A DNA stretch of 64,000 bases from Natronomonas salsuginis (GTDB lineage Archaea > Halobacteriota > Halobacteria > Halobacteriales > Haloarculaceae): the NCBI RefSeq assembly GCF_005239135.1, contig NZ_QKNX01000001.1, forward strand, positions 1 to 64,000. Reading direction: 5' to 3'. Within the stretch, counting starts at the first letter, position 1; each line of letters starts with the position of its first letter. The notes beneath the pieces were generated by a model. It was not told the DNA's origin, searched no databases, and worked only from the letters and a program-made list of their open reading frames with translations. Both the position numbers and the translations under genes were made by a program. Below are positions 47,044 to 64,000 of this stretch, one piece after another.

Positions 47044-48522
47044 CTACACCGTATCGTCGATGAGCGCGTTCGCGGTGTGTTCGCCGCTGATCAGACACAT
47101 CGGGACGCCGATTCCCGGCGTCGTGTACGATCCCGTGTAGTACAGCCCCGGACAGGCATCCGAGCGGCGGGCCGGGCGAAACAGCGCGGTCTGTCGGAGC
47201 GTGTGCGCGAGGCCGAGCGCCGTCCCCTGCATGCTGTTGTACCGATCAGCGAACTCCGAGACGGTGAACTGCTCCTCGAAGACGATCCGATCGCGCAGGT
47301 CGACTCCGGTGTGGTCGGCGATGTCGTCGAGGACGAGGTCGCGGTACCAGGTCCGGACCTCGTCGGTGTCGTCGAGGCCGGGCGCGATCGGGACGAGCGC
47401 GAAGAGGTTCGAGTGGCCCGCCGGTGCCACGCTGTCGTCCGTCTTCGAGGGGACACAGAGGTAGTAGGCGGGGTCTTCGGGCCACGTCGGATCGTCGAAG
47501 ATCTGTTCGAAGTGCTCGTCCCAGTCGGTCGGCAGGACGAGCGTGTGGTGTTCGAGCGGCTCGACGTCGCCCTCGACGCCGAGATACAGGAGGAACGCCG
47601 AGGGCGAGTACGTCCGCGACTCCCAGTAGTCGTCGTCGTACTGCCGTTCGTGCTCGGGGAGCAACTCGCGTTCGGTGTGGGCGTAGTCGGCGTTGCTGAC
47701 GACGTAGTCGGCGTCGACGTCGCCGGCTTCGGACTCGACGCGGAAGCCCTCGCGCCGGTTGACGATCTCCGTGACCTCGGCGTCGGTGACGTACTCCACG
47801 CCCAGTTCCTCACCCAACTCAATGCAGGCGTCGACGACGGACCGGAGTCCGTTCTCGGGGTAGTGGACGCCGAGGTTGAAGTCGACGTGCCCCATCATGT
47901 TGTAGATCGCGGGCGTGTTGTGCGGCGCACCGCCGAGGAAGACGAGCGTGTACTGCATGATCTGGCGCAGTTTCGGGTGGTCGAAGTAGCCGGAGACGTA
48001 GTCGTCCATCGTCCCGAGCAGCTGGAGCCCGATCGGCGCGGCGCGCATCACGTCGAGGTCGACCCAATCGCGCATTCGGGGGCGATCGGTGTAGATGAAC
48101 TGCTCCATTGCGACCTCGTAGTGCGACTCGGAGGTCTCGAGGTAGTCGTCGAGCGCCTCGCCCGCCCCCGGCTCGTAGGACTCGAACAGCTCGCGCATCT
48201 CCTCGCGATCGGTAGTGACCTCGGCCACGTCGCCGTCCTTGAAGAAGATACGATAGTGTGGATCGAGTCGTTCGAGTTCGTAGAAGTCGCTCGGTTCGCG
48301 GTCGAAGTGCCCAAAGAATCGTTCGAACACGTCGGGCATCAGATACCAAGAGGGGCCCATGTCGAATCGGAATCCTTCTGTTTCCAGCACCGACGCGCGT
48401 CCACCCAACTGTCTGTTCTTTTCGAGGACCGTCACATCGAAGCCGGCGTCGGCGAGATAACACGCCGAGGAGAGCCCGCCGAAGCCGGAGCCGACGACCG
48501 CGACGGAACGGGGGTCAGACAT
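47044..48522 (-). CDS. crtD: Carotenoid 3,4-desaturase (phytoene desaturase family)
   Basis: 492 aa (ATG 48528 gives 494). FAD-dependent desaturase: RSVAVVGSGFGGLSSACYLA dinucleotide fold, VLEKNRQLGGRASVLETEGF, GPSWYLMPDVFERFFGHF, and the C-terminal GLYYTGSYTTPGIGVPMCLI. Position before lyeJ and cruF identifies it as CrtD rather than CrtI. TATA ATTTAATG (48548-48556) about 25 nt from the start; it diverges from the SDR gene. Confidence 0.88.
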   Translation of the reverse strand: MSDPRSVAVVGSGFGGLSSACYLADAGFDVTVLEKNRQLGGRASVLETEGFRFDMGPSWYLMPDVFERFFGHFDREPSDFYELERLDPHYRIFFKDGDVAEVTTDREEMRELFESYEPGAGEALDDYLETSESHYEVAMEQFIYTDRPRMRDWVDLDVMRAAPIGLQLLGTMDDYVSGYFDHPKLRQIMQYTLVFLGGAPHNTPAIYNMMGHVDFNLGVHYPENGLRSVVDACIELGEELGVEYVTDAEVTEIVNRREGFRVESEAGDVDADYVVSNADYAHTERELLPEHERQYDDDYWESRTYSPSAFLLYLGVEGDVEPLEHHTLVLPTDWDEHFEQIFDDPTWPEDPAYYLCVPSKTDDSVAPAGHSNLFALVPIAPGLDDTDEVRTWYRDLVLDDIADHTGVDLRDRIVFEEQFTVSEFADRYNSMQGTALGLAHTLRQTALFRPARRSDACPGLYYTGSYTTPGIGVPMCLISGEHTANALIDDTV

Positions 48523-48614
48523 ATTCATACGTATGGCGGGATGCCACATTAAATCGGGTGTGGTTGACGCTGCCACGGGGAAACGACCTTGGCCCCGCCG
48601 ATCGAAACGTCCGC

Positions 48615-50027: not shown

Positions 50028-51977
50028 TTAGATGTTGGAGATCCGGCGATATTCGTCGGACAGTGCCGACGCGTCCTCGGGCAAGAGCGCGACGACCAGA
50101 TACTCGCTGAACCCCTCGACGTACTCGATCAGCGCGGCGATCCGGTCGGAGTCGATCGCTTCGAGTGAGTCCAACAGCATGAACGGGACCGACTCGTACA
50201 CCCCGTGGGCCAGATAGCCGGCCAATGCGAAGACGAGGCCGGTGACCTCGCGCTCGCTCTCGCTGAGGTGGTCGATCGTGTCCTCGTACGTCACGCCGCC
50301 GTCGGTCTGGCGGATGATGTGAAGTTCGAAGACGCTCTTTGTGACCTTGCGGCGACCCTCTCTGACCTCGCGTTCGACCCGTTCGAGCCAGATCCGTTCA
50401 AGATTACTGTAGCCGAGGATATCGAGCACGGAGTCCATGTGTTCGTTGAACCCCTCGATCGCCTGCTCTTCGATCCGGTCGATCTTGGTCCGCAGATCCT
50501 CGACGTCGGCGCGGATCTCCTCGCGCCGCTCGTTGAGTTCCGACTCGGCATCGAGGCGCTGTTCGATCCGTGTGATTTCCGACTCGACGTCGTCGAACTT
50601 GCTCTCCAGGCGGCCGAGTTCGTACTCGAGTTGATTGGCCTCCTTGTGGATGCCCAACACCTCTTCGTAGCTGTCGTCTTCGAGTTCCTCGATCTCCGAT
50701 TCGAGTCCCTCTATTTCCGCCTGCAGATCCCCCCGTCGGTCCGTGAGGCGTTCGATCGACGATTCGATCCGATCGACCTCGTCGTCGAGGCTGGATCGGC
50801 GACGCTGTAACTGCTCTCGCCGTCGCTGTTTTTGTCCGAGCTCCCGAACGTCGTCGGTGAGCGTGTCCAACTGCGTCTCGATGTCGCTTATTTCGCCGAG
50901 TTTGCTCTGACTGAGTTCTCGTAGTCGGGAGACGGTTGTCTCGATCTGCTCGTGGGGGACCTCGCTGCCACAGGTCCAACAGGTGACCTGATCGCCCCCG
51001 AGGAGCTCGTCAGTGAGTTCGCTCTCCCCATCTTCGGCGGGTGTTTCGAGCGCTTCGAGGAGGTCCGCGTCGTCACCGTCGAGCATGTCCTGATTGAATC
51101 TGATGACGCTTTGGACCTCGTTGATCTCCGACTCCAGCGCCCGCTTTTGCTCTCTGAGCCGGTCGATCTTCGCCTCCAACTCCTCTATCTCCCCGACCGG
51201 AGCGTCCGGCAGTTCGTCGAACTCCTCGTCGAGTTCTCGCTTCTGCGTTCGCGTCGAATCGAGGCTCTCGCGTTCGGTTTCGAGCTCGTAGCGGATGTCC
51301 TCCAACTCGGAGCGCTTCGACCGGAGTTCGGCGAGCCGTTCCTCGAGGTCGGCCTTCTCTTCGCGGCTCTGCTCGACGTTCGCGTCGCGATCCTCCAGCT
51401 CCGCCTCCTTCTCGGCGAGGTCCTCTTTTGCCTCCTCGATCTCCCCTTTGAGGCGGGTTCGGTCCTCCTCGAGGGCGGGGAGTCGGTTTTTCAGCTGGTC
51501 CAACTCCTCCAACTCCGATTCGATCTTGTCTCGCTTCCGAAGCCGTCGGTCGATCTTCGCCTGTATCTCGTCGGTATCGACCGGACGCATGATGAGGTCG
51601 CGGAGATCGGCGTTGGTCGCAACGGCGCGGCGCGCCTCGTTCGACTCGAGGAGAAACGCGAACAGTTCCGCGAGCGTGGGGTCTTCCAGGTACGGCTCCC
51701 CCTCGGACGTGATGCTCGTCCCCTGTCTGGTGAGTTCTCGTTCGTGCGTTTCGCCGTCGATCGTCAGTTCGACAGTCGCGCTGTCCGCGTCGCCTTTCAT
51801 AGAGACGTTGTCGCTTCCGAGTGCGGCCATGATAGCCTGCAAGAGGGACGTTCGATTCGTCGCGTTTTCCCCCGCGAGAATTGTCACCCCCGGCTCGAAT
51901 TCCACCGACGTCTCGTCGATCCCGCCGATGTTTCGGACGGATAGTTGGGCCTGCGCTACTGTCTGCTCCGTGTTCAT
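50028..51977 (-). CDS. sph3: Archaea-specific SMC-related protein (Sph3-type)
   Basis: 649 aa. SMC/Rad50-like layout: N-terminal ATPase lobe (1-130), long coiled coil (about 140-300), zinc hook CWTCG (Cys333, Cys336), returning coiled coil (345-530), and C-terminal lobe with signature SHLS-like HLSESEREVTGLVFALAGYL and Walker B FMLLDSLEAIDSD. The Walker A is degenerate: GENATNRTSLLQAI (residues 36-49), with Asn-Arg-Thr in place of Gly-Lys-Ser/Thr. It pairs divergently with rdfA, as in Haloferax, where Sph3 and RdfA affect cell shape (from memory). ATPase activity is questionable. Confidence 0.85.
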   Translation of the reverse strand: MNTEQTVAQAQLSVRNIGGIDETSVEFEPGVTILAGENATNRTSLLQAIMAALGSDNVSMKGDADSATVELTIDGETHERELTRQGTSITSEGEPYLEDPTLAELFAFLLESNEARRAVATNADLRDLIMRPVDTDEIQAKIDRRLRKRDKIESELEELDQLKNRLPALEEDRTRLKGEIEEAKEDLAEKEAELEDRDANVEQSREEKADLEERLAELRSKRSELEDIRYELETERESLDSTRTQKRELDEEFDELPDAPVGEIEELEAKIDRLREQKRALESEINEVQSVIRFNQDMLDGDDADLLEALETPAEDGESELTDELLGGDQVTCWTCGSEVPHEQIETTVSRLRELSQSKLGEISDIETQLDTLTDDVRELGQKQRRREQLQRRRSSLDDEVDRIESSIERLTDRRGDLQAEIEGLESEIEELEDDSYEEVLGIHKEANQLEYELGRLESKFDDVESEITRIEQRLDAESELNERREEIRADVEDLRTKIDRIEEQAIEGFNEHMDSVLDILGYSNLERIWLERVEREVREGRRKVTKSVFELHIIRQTDGGVTYEDTIDHLSESEREVTGLVFALAGYLAHGVYESVPFMLLDSLEAIDSDRIAALIEYVEGFSEYLVVALLPEDASALSDEYRRISNI

Positions 51978-52121
51978 GATTGCGCCATTGAACGTCTCGG
52001 GAAATAAATATGATGAAACACGGCGATCCTGCCTTCAATGGTACTCCCCGTGTAGAGCCAAAGACGGGTCTCGCTACCATTCGAACACAAAATACTAACA
52101 CACACCCGCCGTTTCTGGCCC

Positions 52122-52742
52122 ATGAACGACGCTGACGACCGCCCTGGATCGGGACGGGGGCGGCGAAGCAAGGTCGCTCGTCTGCTTCAGGAGTACGATA
52201 TCGAGGACCTCGGGGCCGAACTCGAGCGACGTTGGACCGCCGACGAAGACCGCCAGAGCCTCAGGGAACTGGCGGCGTATTTCAACCAACGGATCCTCGA
52301 ACGCGCCCTCGAAGACGCCGACGTTCGGCCGCTCGACGGGGAAGTAGAGAACATTTACCGGCTCCTCACCGACGACTCCAGCGGCGCGGATCGAACGCGC
52401 ATCCGTCGTCGCCTCGAGCGCGACGGACTCGACGTCGACGCGATCGAGACTGACTTCGTCACGTATCAAGCGATCAGGACCTACCTGAAGAAACACCGCG
52501 GCGCGGAGTATACCCCGGACGAAACCGACCCGGTCGAACGCGAGATCACGAACATTCAACAGCTCCGCGGTCGTGTAGACTCCGTCACCGAGGGAAAACT
52601 CGAGCAGTTGCGCGCCAGCGGCCACCTCGAACTCGGGACGTTTCGGACGCTGGTCGACGTCCGCGTCGTCTGTGAGGACTGTAACACGCAGTTCAGCGCC
52701 GTCGAACTGCTCGAACGCGGCCACTGTAACTGCTCGGAGTGA
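52122..52742 (+). CDS. rdfA: Rod-determining factor RdfA
   Basis: 206 aa. N-terminal basic/Ser patch then VARLLQEYDIEDLGAELERR ... LRELAAYFNQRILERALEDA (conserved YFN), a winged-helix-like middle, and a C-terminal half zinc finger CEDCNTQFSAVELLERGHCNC (C-x2-C ... C-x-C). I recognise the haloarchaeal RdfA family, needed for the rod-cell state in Haloferax. It is divergent from sph3, with 145 bp between starts carrying both promoters, so they are likely co-regulated. Confidence 0.85.
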   Translation: MNDADDRPGSGRGRRSKVARLLQEYDIEDLGAELERRWTADEDRQSLRELAAYFNQRILERALEDADVRPLDGEVENIYRLLTDDSSGADRTRIRRRLERDGLDVDAIETDFVTYQAIRTYLKKHRGAEYTPDETDPVEREITNIQQLRGRVDSVTEGKLEQLRASGHLELGTFRTLVDVRVVCEDCNTQFSAVELLERGHCNCSE

Positions 52743-60421: not shown

Positions 60422-61132
60422 TCACTCGCAGATCCGGGGACGCTCGCCCCGATGGATCTCGAGCAACGTTTCGGTTCCGGCCCGATCGAACTTCATCGGC
60501 CGTCGCCACCACGGTCCCTTCCCCGAATCACCCGATAGCTCCGTCACCAACGGATTGGCGTCGACGCCGCCGTCGGGGCTCGAAAGCGGGATCGCCGTCT
60601 CGTAGATGGTCGATCCGTCGGGGTCGCCGCGGAGGAGCACCTCGGCGTCGAACGGGTCGCGCTTGAGGTGTGCGTTCTCCGCGAAGGACGATCGCTCGTC
60701 GGCGGAGAGTTCGGAAAACGCGTCCGCATCCAGCGGCTCACGCGCGAGTCGGAAGTGGCCGATGACGTACGCGCCCCACTCCGGCGCGATCCACTCGGCC
60801 GAATCGTCGTCGACCGTCGACAGCGTCGCGTAGAAGAAGACGACGTCGCCCTCATCCAACTCGAGGAGCGGGCGTGCCTTCACCCCGTGTGGGTCCCCGT
60901 AGGTGTACGACGAACGATCGTGCACGCCCGCGAACGTCGGATCGAGGTGCACGGGCGTCTCGGCGACGGTGCCCACGTCGGTTTCGAGCTCGAGGTCCGC
61001 GTACGTCGGTACGTCGGCGTTCGAGCGGGTCGGCTCCGATTCGGGGATCGGGATGTATTCGAAGCTCCCGTCGTCGAAGATCGGGCCTCGAAAGCCGGGT
61101 TGATTCGTGTTCGCCCCGACGTTGATCGCCAC
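60422..61132 (-). CDS. Nmad3-like protein (nucleotide modification associated domain 3)
   Basis: 236 aa from GTG 61132. VAINVGANTNQPGFRGPIFD at the start, GSFEYIPIPESEPTRSNADV, DPHGVKARPLLELDEGDVVF, APEWGAYVIGHFRLAREPLD and WWRRPMKFDRAGTETLLEI. This matches my memory of the Nmad3 family, proposed from genome context to act on modified nucleotides in DNA. In haloarchaea it is chromosomal and widespread. Function unproven; neighbours give no extra support. Confidence 0.65.
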   Translation of the reverse strand: MAINVGANTNQPGFRGPIFDDGSFEYIPIPESEPTRSNADVPTYADLELETDVGTVAETPVHLDPTFAGVHDRSSYTYGDPHGVKARPLLELDEGDVVFFYATLSTVDDDSAEWIAPEWGAYVIGHFRLAREPLDADAFSELSADERSSFAENAHLKRDPFDAEVLLRGDPDGSTIYETAIPLSSPDGGVDANPLVTELSGDSGKGPWWRRPMKFDRAGTETLLEIHRGERPRICE

Positions 61133-61145
61133 GCTTCGCACGCAG

Positions 61146-61364
61146 TTACCAGTACGAGCGGGGGTTCGCGAGCCAGCGTCGGTTCCGCGCGCCGACGGCG
61201 ATCGCAGCGAGGAGCACGACCACAAGCAGGGCAACCGTCACCATGGCGGGCGTCACGTTCGCGCCGACCGAGAAGGTCGTCACGAACAACTCGACAGTCG
61301 CGCCCGCGCTCCAGAGAACGACGAGCACCACCAGCGCGGCCGACAGCGGTCTGATCCGGTCCAT
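61146..61364 (-). CDS. Small two-span membrane protein (72 aa)
   Basis: MDRIRPLSAALVVLVVLWSA ... TVELFVTTFSVGANVTPAMV ... TVALLVVVLLAAIAVGARNR. Two hydrophobic helices with a short loop and a basic, Trp/Tyr-ending tail (RRWLANPRSYW). TATA TTTTTATATGG at about 61386-61394 supports a leaderless ATG 61364. Unknown function; it precedes the Nmad3-like gene by 13 bp and is likely co-transcribed with it. Confidence 0.65.
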   Translation of the reverse strand: MDRIRPLSAALVVLVVLWSAGATVELFVTTFSVGANVTPAMVTVALLVVVLLAAIAVGARNRRWLANPRSYW

Positions 61365-61485
61365 ACCGGATGCTGCACACGGCTCCATATAAAAACCACT
61401 ACCTTGCAGCGTGCCACGTGCCGATGGCTGTCTCGCCGCACCTGCTTTCGCAGGGCCGATATAACGGGCCGACGAACACCCGTGC

Positions 61486-62226
61486 ATGACCACTGTCGCC
61501 GTGCTCGCTGACCCGCCGCATCCCGACGTAGCCCTGCCCGATCTCGTCGCATCGTCGCCGCTGTCCGGCTCTGAGGCGGCCGATCTCTACACCGCCCTCC
61601 TCCGGGACACGGTGCTCGCGGTCGATCGAAGCGGCGGCGAACTCCTCGTGAACTACCGACCGGCCGACGCGCTCGGCCTCGACGTCGACTCGGAGGCACA
61701 GATCCGATCGGCGCTTGACGGCGTCGTCGACGCCGACTCGCCGCGATTCGAAGTGCAGGTCGGCGAGACGTTCGCCGGACGGGCCGGGAACACGGCGACG
61801 CACCTCCTCGAAACCGAAGGCGTCGGCTCGGTGGGGGTTGTCCGCCCCGAGGCCGCGCTCCTCGCGCGCACTGACATCGATGGGGCGGCGATGAAACTTC
61901 GGAGTTCGCCAGTCGTGCTCGGTCCCGCCCCGGGCGGGCGAGTCACCTACGCGGCGTTCGCGGAGCCGATCGACTACGCCGATTGCTACGCGCCGCCGGC
62001 GCTCGAAACGCTCACGGATCGCGCGCTCGACCGCGGCTTCGACGTCGATTTCCTCGATACCAAGCCGTTTCTTCGGACCGCGACGGATCTCGCGGAAATC
62101 CTCGTTCGGGTCCGAACTCGGTCGAAAGCGGAGGCGATCGTCCCGCCACACCTCGCGTCGTGGGTCGCCGACTCGGACCTTGCGGTGACGGCCCACGCCG
62201 ACGGGTCCCTGACGCTCCGTCGATAA
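61486..62226 (+). CDS. Conserved archaeal protein, nucleotidyl-/glycosyltransferase-A-like
   Basis: 246 aa. TTVAVLADPPHPDVALPDLV, TGSEAADLYTALLRDTVLAV-like, GNTATHLLETEGVGSVGVVR, MKLRSSPVVLGPAPGGRVTY and AFAEPIDYADCYAPPALETL. The VVLGPAPGG turn recalls GT-A-fold transferases (DUF2064/CofC-like), but the DxD metal motif is not evident, so function is only suggested. Well conserved in haloarchaea. Confidence 0.65.
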   Translation: MTTVAVLADPPHPDVALPDLVASSPLSGSEAADLYTALLRDTVLAVDRSGGELLVNYRPADALGLDVDSEAQIRSALDGVVDADSPRFEVQVGETFAGRAGNTATHLLETEGVGSVGVVRPEAALLARTDIDGAAMKLRSSPVVLGPAPGGRVTYAAFAEPIDYADCYAPPALETLTDRALDRGFDVDFLDTKPFLRTATDLAEILVRVRTRSKAEAIVPPHLASWVADSDLAVTAHADGSLTLRR

Positions 62227-62267
62227 CCGACAGATCTTATACGGTGTCGGCGACAATCTCGTGACGT

Positions 62268-62349
62268 GGTGGGATGGCAGAGTGGACTATTGCGTCTGCC
62301 TTGAAAGCAGATGGCGCAAGCCTCCTGGGTTCGAATCCCAGTCCCACCG
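62268..62349 (+). tRNA. tRNA-Ser (TGA)
   Basis: Acceptor GGTGGGA (62268-62274) pairs with TCCCACC (62342-62348), discriminator G62349. Anticodon stem TCTGC/GCAGA, loop CTTGAAA, anticodon TGA. Long class II variable arm (TGGCGCAAGCC) and T arm CTGGG TTCGAAT CCCAG. No intron. It is followed directly by tandem repeats of its own 3' end. Confidence 0.95.
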
Positions 62350-62546
62350 TTGCTGTCTCGTTAGTTGTGGATTCGAGCCCTGAGAGTCGCAGCCCCGAGC
62401 GAAGCGAGGGGATCGTCTCTCTCCGGTTCGAATCCCAGTCCCACCGTCGCTGTCTCGTTAGCTGTGGATTCGAGCCCTGAGAGTCGCAGCCCCCGAGCGA
62501 AGCGAGGGGGATCGTCTCTCTCCGGTTCGAATCCCAGTCCCACCGT
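62328..62546 (+). repeat. Three tandem copies of the tRNA-Ser 3' end in two ~98-bp units
   Basis: A 23-bp sequence equal to the T-arm and 3' acceptor half of tRNA-Ser occurs at 62328-62350 (inside the tRNA), 62425-62447 and 62524-62546. The intervening DNA (about 74-76 bp) is nearly identical in the two units. Each unit includes a hairpin of Cs and Gs around GAGCGAAGCGA; unit 1 has 4+4, unit 2 has 5+5, a compensating change. The arrangement is that of attachment-site duplications left at a tRNA by integration and excision, or of a repeated RNA element. Confidence 0.8.
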
Positions 62547-62629
62547 CTCTCGACGTACGGCTGACGTACCACGGCCACAAATCGGCCCCCGGCACGGACT
62601 TTATCACCGCTGAATCCGTACTATCGGCC

Positions 62630-64000
62630 GTGAGTACGCGAACGAGCGCCCTCGATGACCTCATCTTCGGCGTCGACATCCAAAGCGGCGATATCCGCGG
62701 TGACGCACCCGCATACGCCGTCGTCGCCTACGACGGGGAGTCGATCGACCGGGACGTCGTTTCGTTGCGGAAACTGCACCGCCGCATCGACGGCGAGCAG
62801 CCGGCGATCGTCGCGACGGACAACACCTTCGAGCTGGCCGAAGACAAAGCCGCACTCGTCCACTTCCTGCGGGGACTTCCTTCCGGAACGAAACTCGTGC
62901 AGGTGACCGGCGACGAACGGCCGGAGCCGCTCTCTCGGGTCGCCGCCCGACACGGCGTTCCCTACGGCAAGGCGCCGATGAAGGAGGCCGAGGCGGCCGC
63001 CAGACTCGCGGCGCGAAACGTCGGCTACGAGGTCTCGGCGTTCACGAACACGACGACCGTCAAGGTCTCCCGAGGGCGCTCGACGGGGAGCGGCGGGTGG
63101 AGCGAGGACCGATTTACGCGCCGCATCCACGGCTCGGTCAAGACGACTGCCCGAGATGTCGAATCGAAACTCGACGAGGCCGCACTGGAGTACGAGCGCG
63201 AGGTGACCGAGAAGTACGGCGGCTACTCGCGGGCCGTCTTCGAGGTCGAGGCGACGCCCGACGAGATCCCTGTCTCGGCGCGCCGGTCCGGCGACACCCG
63301 CATCGAGATCGAGCGCGAGCGCCGCGACGGGATCGAGTACCGCCCGCTCGCGAAGCGGCGCGATCACGTCGTGGTCGGCATCGATCCCGGCACGACCACG
63401 GCGGTCGCGCTGACCGATCTCGACGGGACGGTGCTCGACGTGTGGTCGAGCCGAACCGCCGACACCGCGACCGTGATCGAGTGGATCATCGAACACGGTC
63501 GACCGATCGTCGTCGCGGCCGACGTCGAACCGATGCCCGAGACCGTCGAGAAGATCCGTCGGAGCTTCGACGCGGCGGGGTGGATCCCCCAGCGCGATCT
63601 CTCGGTGGACAAGAAGCTCCATCGGACGCGCGAGGAGGCCTACGACAACGATCACGAGCGGGACGCGATGGCCGCCGCGCTGTTCGCCTTCGACGACCAC
63701 GAGGATCAGTTCGAACGGATCGCTGCGAAGGTCCCACCGCAGTTCGATCGCGGGGAGGTCATCGCCCGTGTCGTTGCCGGCGAGGAGAGCGTCGAGGCCG
63801 TCTTGAATGCGATGCGCGACGATGACGACTCCGAGGAGGAATCGACGGCGCACGATCCTCGCGAGCTGACCGACGAGGAGCGAACGATCAAGCGGCTCAA
63901 GACGAGGGTCGAACGGCTCGAAGGGCACGTCGATCGGTTGAACGACACCGTCTCGCGGAAGGACGACCGGATCGCCGAGCTGGAGTCAGAACTGTCGGAC
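62630..64000 (+). CDS. DUF460-domain protein (RNase-H-fold-like), C-terminally cut by the window
   Basis: Partial: 457 codons from GTG 62630 to the window end. FGVDIQSGDIRGDAPAYAVV start; central GIDPGTTTAVALTDLDGTVL is an RNase-H-fold first-strand motif, followed by VIEWIIEHGRPIVVAADVEP and RREEAYDNDHERDAMAAALF-like (Asp-rich) which could supply further acidic residues. From about residue 415 the protein becomes a coiled coil (RTIKRLKTRVERLEGHVDRL). DUF460 is a conserved archaeal family of unknown role. TATA GGACTTTATC near 62597. Confidence 0.8.
   Translation, partial: MSTRTSALDDLIFGVDIQSGDIRGDAPAYAVVAYDGESIDRDVVSLRKLHRRIDGEQPAIVATDNTFELAEDKAALVHFLRGLPSGTKLVQVTGDERPEPLSRVAARHGVPYGKAPMKEAEAAARLAARNVGYEVSAFTNTTTVKVSRGRSTGSGGWSEDRFTRRIHGSVKTTARDVESKLDEAALEYEREVTEKYGGYSRAVFEVEATPDEIPVSARRSGDTRIEIERERRDGIEYRPLAKRRDHVVVGIDPGTTTAVALTDLDGTVLDVWSSRTADTATVIEWIIEHGRPIVVAADVEPMPETVEKIRRSFDAAGWIPQRDLSVDKKLHRTREEAYDNDHERDAMAAALFAFDDHEDQFERIAAKVPPQFDRGEVIARVVAGEESVEAVLNAMRDDDDSEEESTAHDPRELTDEERTIKRLKTRVERLEGHVDRLNDTVSRKDDRIAELESELSD

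Follow-up and report, generated by a model that had tools for sequence, protein, structure and literature searches.

The haloarchaeal ASRPs (archaea-specific SMC-related proteins, here of the Sph type) examined in this analysis lack the catalytic glutamate of the Walker B motif, and in the large majority of them the Walker A lysine has been exchanged along with it. Taken together with the shape phenotypes described in the literature, a site devoid of both catalytic residues makes a static, stoichiometric scaffold the simplest reading, and on balance we favor the view that these proteins are SMC-shaped scaffolds that no longer hydrolyze ATP and work with RdfA. The point of departure was a gene pair in the window, by which we mean the whole stretch of 64,000 nucleotides of Natronomonas salsuginis DNA analyzed here. 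It lies on contig C1 of a genome of 2.90 Mb in 12 contigs, and the pair comprises these features:

50028..51977, minus strand: ASRP/Sph-type SMC-like protein, 649 aa (open reading frame; NF045487, 686.9 bits; Rad50-head-like model, Z 18.8)
51846..51872, minus strand: Walker A site GENATNRTS, residues 36-44, with R42 at the lysine position (alignment columns)
50970..50981, minus strand: zinc hook, residues 333-336, motif CWTC (both cysteines, C333 and C336, unchanged in 34/34)
50250..50267, minus strand: ABC signature LSESER, residues 571-576 (LSGGE in the genome's own Rad50; alignment)
50151..50183, minus strand: Walker B FMLLDSLEAID, residues 599-609, with S604 at the position of the catalytic glutamate (alignment, codons)
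51978..52121, no strand: divergent intergenic region, 144 bp (sequence inspection)
52122..52742, plus strand: RdfA, 206 aa (PF21811, 255 bits)
52170..52496, plus strand: RdfA helical N-terminal domain, residues 17-125 (model, mean pLDDT 87.7; without clear fold match)
52530..52616, plus strand: RdfA long helix, residues 137-165 (model)
52662..52733, plus strand: RdfA C-terminal four-Cys motif C184, C187, C202, C204 (invariant in 34/34; strands 181-183 and 190-192 in the model)

Both genes are present where the initial annotation had located them and are transcribed divergently from the 144 bp that separate the ASRP (minus strand) and RdfA (plus strand) reading frames. Judged by eye, TATA-like A+T-rich stretches lie about 25-35 bp upstream of each ATG; a sigma-70 promoter scan, a type of scan unsuited to archaea, gave no match. 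A phytoene/3,4-desaturase gene, CrtID (NF058655, 766.8 bits), is found at 47044-48528, about 1.5 kb beyond the pair. The same genome encodes a second, convergent pair on contig C5 (RdfA 61125-61733, ASRP 61899-63824), whose ASRP likewise carries arginine and serine at sites 42 and 604. A third pair, also on contig C5 (8810-13074, L150), is degraded: fragments of an ASRP are left there together with a remnant of RdfA, with in-frame stops.

The 649-residue protein is an ASRP, as it covers the NF045487 profile completely (1-593 of 593) and far exceeds the curated cut-off of 300 bits. It clusters with haloarchaeal Sph proteins in two trees, its closest relatives being Natronomonas proteins with 79% and 73% identity. 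An AlphaFold2 model with a mean pLDDT of 77.8, less reliable around the hook and in parts of the heads, has an SMC/Rad50 head fold (best Foldseek E value 4.1e-17) and, among the chains compared, matches ATPgammaS-bound Rad50 best (VIA-align Z 18.8, 307 residues, 4.1 A). The arms of the modeled coiled coil comprise about 165-180 residues each, and the zinc hook with its invariant cysteines is situated between the coiled coils. The ASRP retains the SMC/Rad50 body, in which the coiled coil is antiparallel, the hook is of the CxxC type and the head consists of two lobes; coiled coils, hook and lobes had been noticed from the sequence at the outset, and the unusual P-loop reported then is indeed read at residues 36-44. 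The glutamine of the Q-loop was not placed by the alignment. One ASRP in PLSDB (CP002989.1, 334324-336234) is labelled 'Kinetochore-Ndc80 complex, subunit Spc25', probably a misannotation due to its coiled coil.

The neighboring protein is RdfA, covering the Pfam profile PF21811 from end to end (1-195 of 195) at a score well above the gathering cut-off of 27. Its model, of good confidence (mean pLDDT 87.7), begins with a helical domain that is followed by a long helix; the small element with four cysteines at the C terminus, the Cys-rich end already noted earlier, is probably a zinc ribbon. The fold of RdfA found no match at E ≤ 0.001 with Foldseek, a second structural comparison did not exceed Z 4.5, and a sequence search of the PDB returned nothing under E 0.4.

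In ABC-type ATPases the Walker A lysine grips the phosphates, normally contacting the beta and gamma phosphates, the Walker B glutamate activates water, and the residues at the positions of Thr43 and Asp603 hold magnesium. Alignment of the window ASRP with Rad50 from the same genome opposes GENATNRTS to GVNGSGKSS in Walker A, LSESE to LSGGE in the signature and LDS to LDE in Walker B. The Walker A lysine has accordingly become R42 and the catalytic glutamate S604, and the likely magnesium ligands Thr43 and Asp603 are retained. The exchange in Walker B (DS for DE) is an additional change that the initial annotation had not recorded. Since the genome's own Rad50 (GVNGSGKSS, DE) and SMC (GPNGSGKS, DE) are canonical, the altered motifs do not reflect a general haloarchaeal habit. 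Degenerate ABC sites such as that of CFTR NBD1 hold ATP without hydrolysis and possess serine at the Walker B glutamate position; they keep the Walker A lysine, however, and are paired with an active site, whereas the window ASRP is presumably a homodimer.

A census of 392 Halobacteriota genomes yielded 121 ASRP places in 77 genomes, for which sites 42 and 604 were read from one alignment. Among the 110 haloarchaeal proteins, 88 combine R42 with S604, seven K42 with A604, and 15 K42 with glycine, arginine, glutamine or serine at 604. Every protein with R42 thus also carries S604, and glutamate at site 604 does not occur in any of the 110. All of the 11 non-haloarchaeal ASRPs possess the lysine, combined with glutamate in eight, aspartate in one and asparagine in two. 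In the extended set, which adds to the census 42 proteins from named species (from 46 loci, the rest being fragments) and 30 proteins chosen by motif, glutamate at site 604 was found in none of the 180 readable haloarchaeal ASRPs, two truncated rows being unreadable at this site. Sph2 of Hbt. salinarum (GRNATGRTS, DSLEAID) and the plasmid copies of Hfx. gibbonsii and Hfx. mediterranei (GRNATNRTS, DSLEAID) are of the arginine/serine type, and an ASRP of Hfx. lucentense reads ASNWQGKSS and DRLGG. A normal GxGKS loop in close homologs had been named at the start as the observation that would speak for a peculiarity of this one protein; with arginine in 88 of 110 haloarchaeal census ASRPs, a local mutation as the source of the odd P-loop is ruled out, and, judged from the alignment, the degenerate Walker A is clade-defining in haloarchaeal ASRPs. 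The initial annotation was right in speaking of an altered site, and its wording of modified nucleotide binding proved too narrow, because lysine and Walker B glutamate are replaced jointly, which argues for loss of hydrolysis more than for a change in binding.

One may object that arginine can sometimes bind phosphate, that E606, which is invariant in the DSLEAID motif of arginine/serine and lysine/alanine ASRPs, might in principle take the place of the missing glutamate, and that strong conservation could also fit an active but unusual enzyme. In such an ATPase of altered chemistry, Arg42 would stand in for the lysine and E606 or a similar acid would act as the base in a cycle that is slow and adapted to potassium at molar concentration. 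The nearly invariant replacements are compatible with it, as are the preserved Thr43, Asp603 and LSxSE signature. We nevertheless regard this as unlikely: a second haloarchaeal clade (DGLG type) also lacks E606, the glutamate position is occupied by Ser, Ala, Gly, Arg or Gln depending on the clade, a pattern more consistent with loss than with the adoption of another base, and Rad50 and SMC of the same organism are canonical in the same salt. The kept magnesium-ligand positions and signature would suit a sensor or switch, too, in which the heads engage on binding ATP or some other ligand, and release is brought about by RdfA, the usual partner, or by ligand level instead of hydrolysis. As 88 of 110 proteins lack the lysine that holds the phosphates and nucleotide binding is putative, this alternative also appears improbable.

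The replaced residues bear the marks of selection. Across 129 sequences with R42 all six arginine codons are in use, 15 of the codons being AGA or AGG, one step from lysine, and G36, N38, A39, T40 and S44 are identical in all of these sequences; S604 is likewise encoded by all six serine codons across 127 sequences. The use of every codon indicates that both residues are under selection and are not decaying, and decay of the active site is thereby ruled out. In a tree built with the motif columns left out, a Sph superclade of 155 proteins stands beside the non-haloarchaeal ASRPs, and within it the pairing is exact: all 127 proteins with arginine have serine, and all 28 with lysine have alanine. 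Two further haloarchaeal clades combine lysine with serine (9) or with G, R, Q or S (16), the deep order of the haloarchaeal clades being poorly supported (0.22). The lysine/alanine proteins are split into two groups, 11 inside the clade of 155 and 17 near its base. When they are constrained to a single clade, the log-likelihood for the full-length proteins drops by 70.5 units (p-AU 0.0067; 52 rows, including 19 of the 28 lysine/alanine and 30 of the 127 arginine/serine proteins), a rejection that fits two concordant switches; with the head lobes alone a single clade is not rejected (p-AU 0.051), and the group tested had been defined after inspection of the tree.

A strict coupling of K42 with A604 in proteins with N41-K42, predicted beforehand, was assessed on 31 regions, one of which (L269) was without ASRP and was dropped; it held in 21 of 30 new sequences and failed in nine, and is rejected. 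The nine failures constitute the separate lysine/serine clade. Together with the exact pairing in the clade of 155 they indicate that the link between arginine and serine is strong and that the link between lysine and alanine is confined to one clade. The lysine/serine proteins (L239, L240, L245, L249-L251, L260, L261, L268) comprise about 610-630 residues, with one reading frame of 890, mostly possess the motifs NASNKTS and LAESE together with DS.G..D, and in seven of nine cases lie near RdfA.

The proposal that the two proteins act as a unit is borne out by the census, as a Pfam RdfA match occurs no more than 1 kb from 98 of 121 ASRPs (95 of 110 in haloarchaea), with at most 337 bp between the matched stretches, and as the trees of the partners match. 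Their face-to-face arrangement, by contrast, is not a general feature: 56 pairs are co-directional with RdfA first, 18 co-directional with ASRP first, 14 convergent and only 10 divergent. Even among Natronomonas relatives, two share the divergent form (L004, L007) and two are co-directional (L005, L006). Adjacency that persists through all four orientations points to a joint function beyond co-transcription. ASRP and RdfA trees agree with a Mantel r of 0.893 for 133 pairs, the best of 999 permutations reaching 0.223; because shared species history inflates this value, paralogous pairs were compared within genomes, and the right partner was kept in 75 of 80 comparisons. The association is not without exceptions, since an ASRP within 1 kb is missing for 51 of 149 RdfA matches, and 15 of 110 haloarchaeal ASRPs lack an RdfA match within the same distance, which counts against a scaffold that works with RdfA.

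Outside the haloarchaea, four ASRPs of family f11 with lysine and glutamate (L131, L133, L134, L136) directly adjoin an RdfA-like gene. These matches were obtained with an HMM built for this analysis (E 8e-30 to 3e-10); two of the four genes (G354, G022) are above the Pfam RdfA cut-off, one (G176) scores 25.3 against the 27 required and one (G221) is not listed. A fifth member of the family (L132), with lysine and aspartate, has no RdfA-like gene beside it. From the description of the Sph sister group in the available part of Yoshinaga 2022 (PMC9389158), the f11 proteins would be those of methanogens. The occurrence of RdfA-like genes next to ASRPs with normal catalytic residues means that the partnership is probably older than the loss of the catalytic glutamate. 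Two further non-haloarchaeal genomes (f33), in which the census found no ASRP, encode proteins that resemble RdfA and carry a Cys motif at the C terminus (L142, 1529-2113; L143, 4976-5668).

Clustering of the flanking reading frames of 76 loci revealed no universal gene that could represent a third conserved partner, most clusters being unannotated. Only IclR-type regulators stood out in this sequence clustering, occurring within 3.5 kb of 26 of the 76 loci, e.g. near contig C5 56000-70000 (L151) and at L146, L147, L153, L154, L159 and others. Eight of 72 IclR genes lie near 31 ASRP/RdfA loci, compared with 0.41 expected by even spacing, and regulator-rich plasmid islands could explain this recurrence. 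ASRPs themselves are found in 117 PLSDB records at E 1e-40, at 148 places in all, which would suit a module for the maintenance of haloarchaeal megaplasmids. Such a role is very improbable, however, given that the window copy and many others reside on chromosomes or large contigs, that the phylum sample of 392 genomes includes 315, some of them haloarchaeal, in which no match is obtained at 1e-60, and that the phage collection records contain no match.

The gene pair, both families and the role in cell shape are already known. The rdfA-sph3 pair of Haloferax volcanii, in which the two gene families of the pair in the window are likewise adjacent, was described by Schiller 2024 (PMC10869688), and the link to shape made in the initial annotation is thus correct: one rdfA-sph pair is needed for rod shape in Haloferax, and deletion of either gene leads to disk-only, non-motile cells with unimpaired growth. 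The same article reports that 42 of 50 SMC-like genes adjoin RdfA in 24 genomes; in its available text the word Walker is absent and RdfA outside haloarchaea is not reported. Deletion of sph2 has the opposite, rod-rich phenotype, and overproduction of Sph gives rise to very long rods (PMC11276520), which could fit a dose-dependent scaffold. According to the accessible part of another report (PMC13286277), Sph3 maintains plate shape and its deletion yields rods only, in contradiction to the absence of rods upon sph3 deletion in PMC10869688 and PMC11276520. The window protein agrees with the Sph clade of the ASRP family (Yoshinaga 2022, PMC9389158; NF045487) in HMM membership, zinc hook and the layout of head, coil and hook. 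In the portion of that paper available, Sph proteins and ASRPs are treated as members of an ATPase superfamily, Walker A and B are described as present, and neither the arginine nor the lost glutamate is mentioned. In the literature covered by our search, which excludes Ruepp 1997, Herrmann 2002 and older articles behind subscription, we found no paper that describes lysine and glutamate as lost together in haloarchaeal ASRPs, and none that reports an RdfA-like partner in non-haloarchaeal genomes.

In Haloferax, gene conversion is influenced by all four Sph proteins, and each deletion lowers survival in the respective assay (PMC11276520), a finding that suits work on DNA better than a scaffold for shape. 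Rad50 is the nearest fold, and the ASRPs could accordingly be clamps for DNA repair or gene conversion whose influence on cell shape is secondary. We consider this quite unlikely, as the sph3 and rdfA mutants display a clean disk-only, non-motile phenotype and no growth defect (PMC10869688) and no Mre11-like gene was recognized among the 18 recurrent flanking clusters listed, most of which are unannotated. The window ASRP shares the head fold with Rad50 and SMC proteins and the hook with Rad50, but differs from both in its short coiled coil and in three replaced elements, namely the lysine of Walker A, the glutamate of Walker B and the signature, which is not of the LSGGE form. Arcadin-4, as cited in PMC9389158, is likewise SMC-like and tied to the archaeal cytoskeleton and shape; the tree of that study, as far as available, places it with Rad50 and not with the ASRPs.

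Returning to the scaffold working with RdfA, we propose that haloarchaeal ASRPs would have lost hydrolysis and kept the interface between the heads. The protein would form rods or rings that are joined by the hooks and by the heads and stay put, the heads being permanently engaged in place of a hydrolysis cycle. Such a scaffold would be stoichiometric and either locked by nucleotide or independent of it, and RdfA, presumably in direct contact with the ASRP, would be a dedicated adaptor that targets or regulates it. A broader evolutionary account is more tentative: haloarchaeal ASRPs may be an entire SMC lineage in which the ATPase was switched off by fixed and co-changing residues of the active site, which strong selection has since preserved as a non-hydrolyzing scaffold, which multiplied into paralogous pairs with RdfA that exert separate or even opposite effects on shape, and which took over its partnership from a hydrolyzing ancestor shared with methanogens. 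SMC proteins are commonly regarded as machines driven by ATP. If a set of SMC-shaped haloarchaeal proteins operates without the catalytic residues, cell shape in Haloferax could be controlled without an ATPase cycle.
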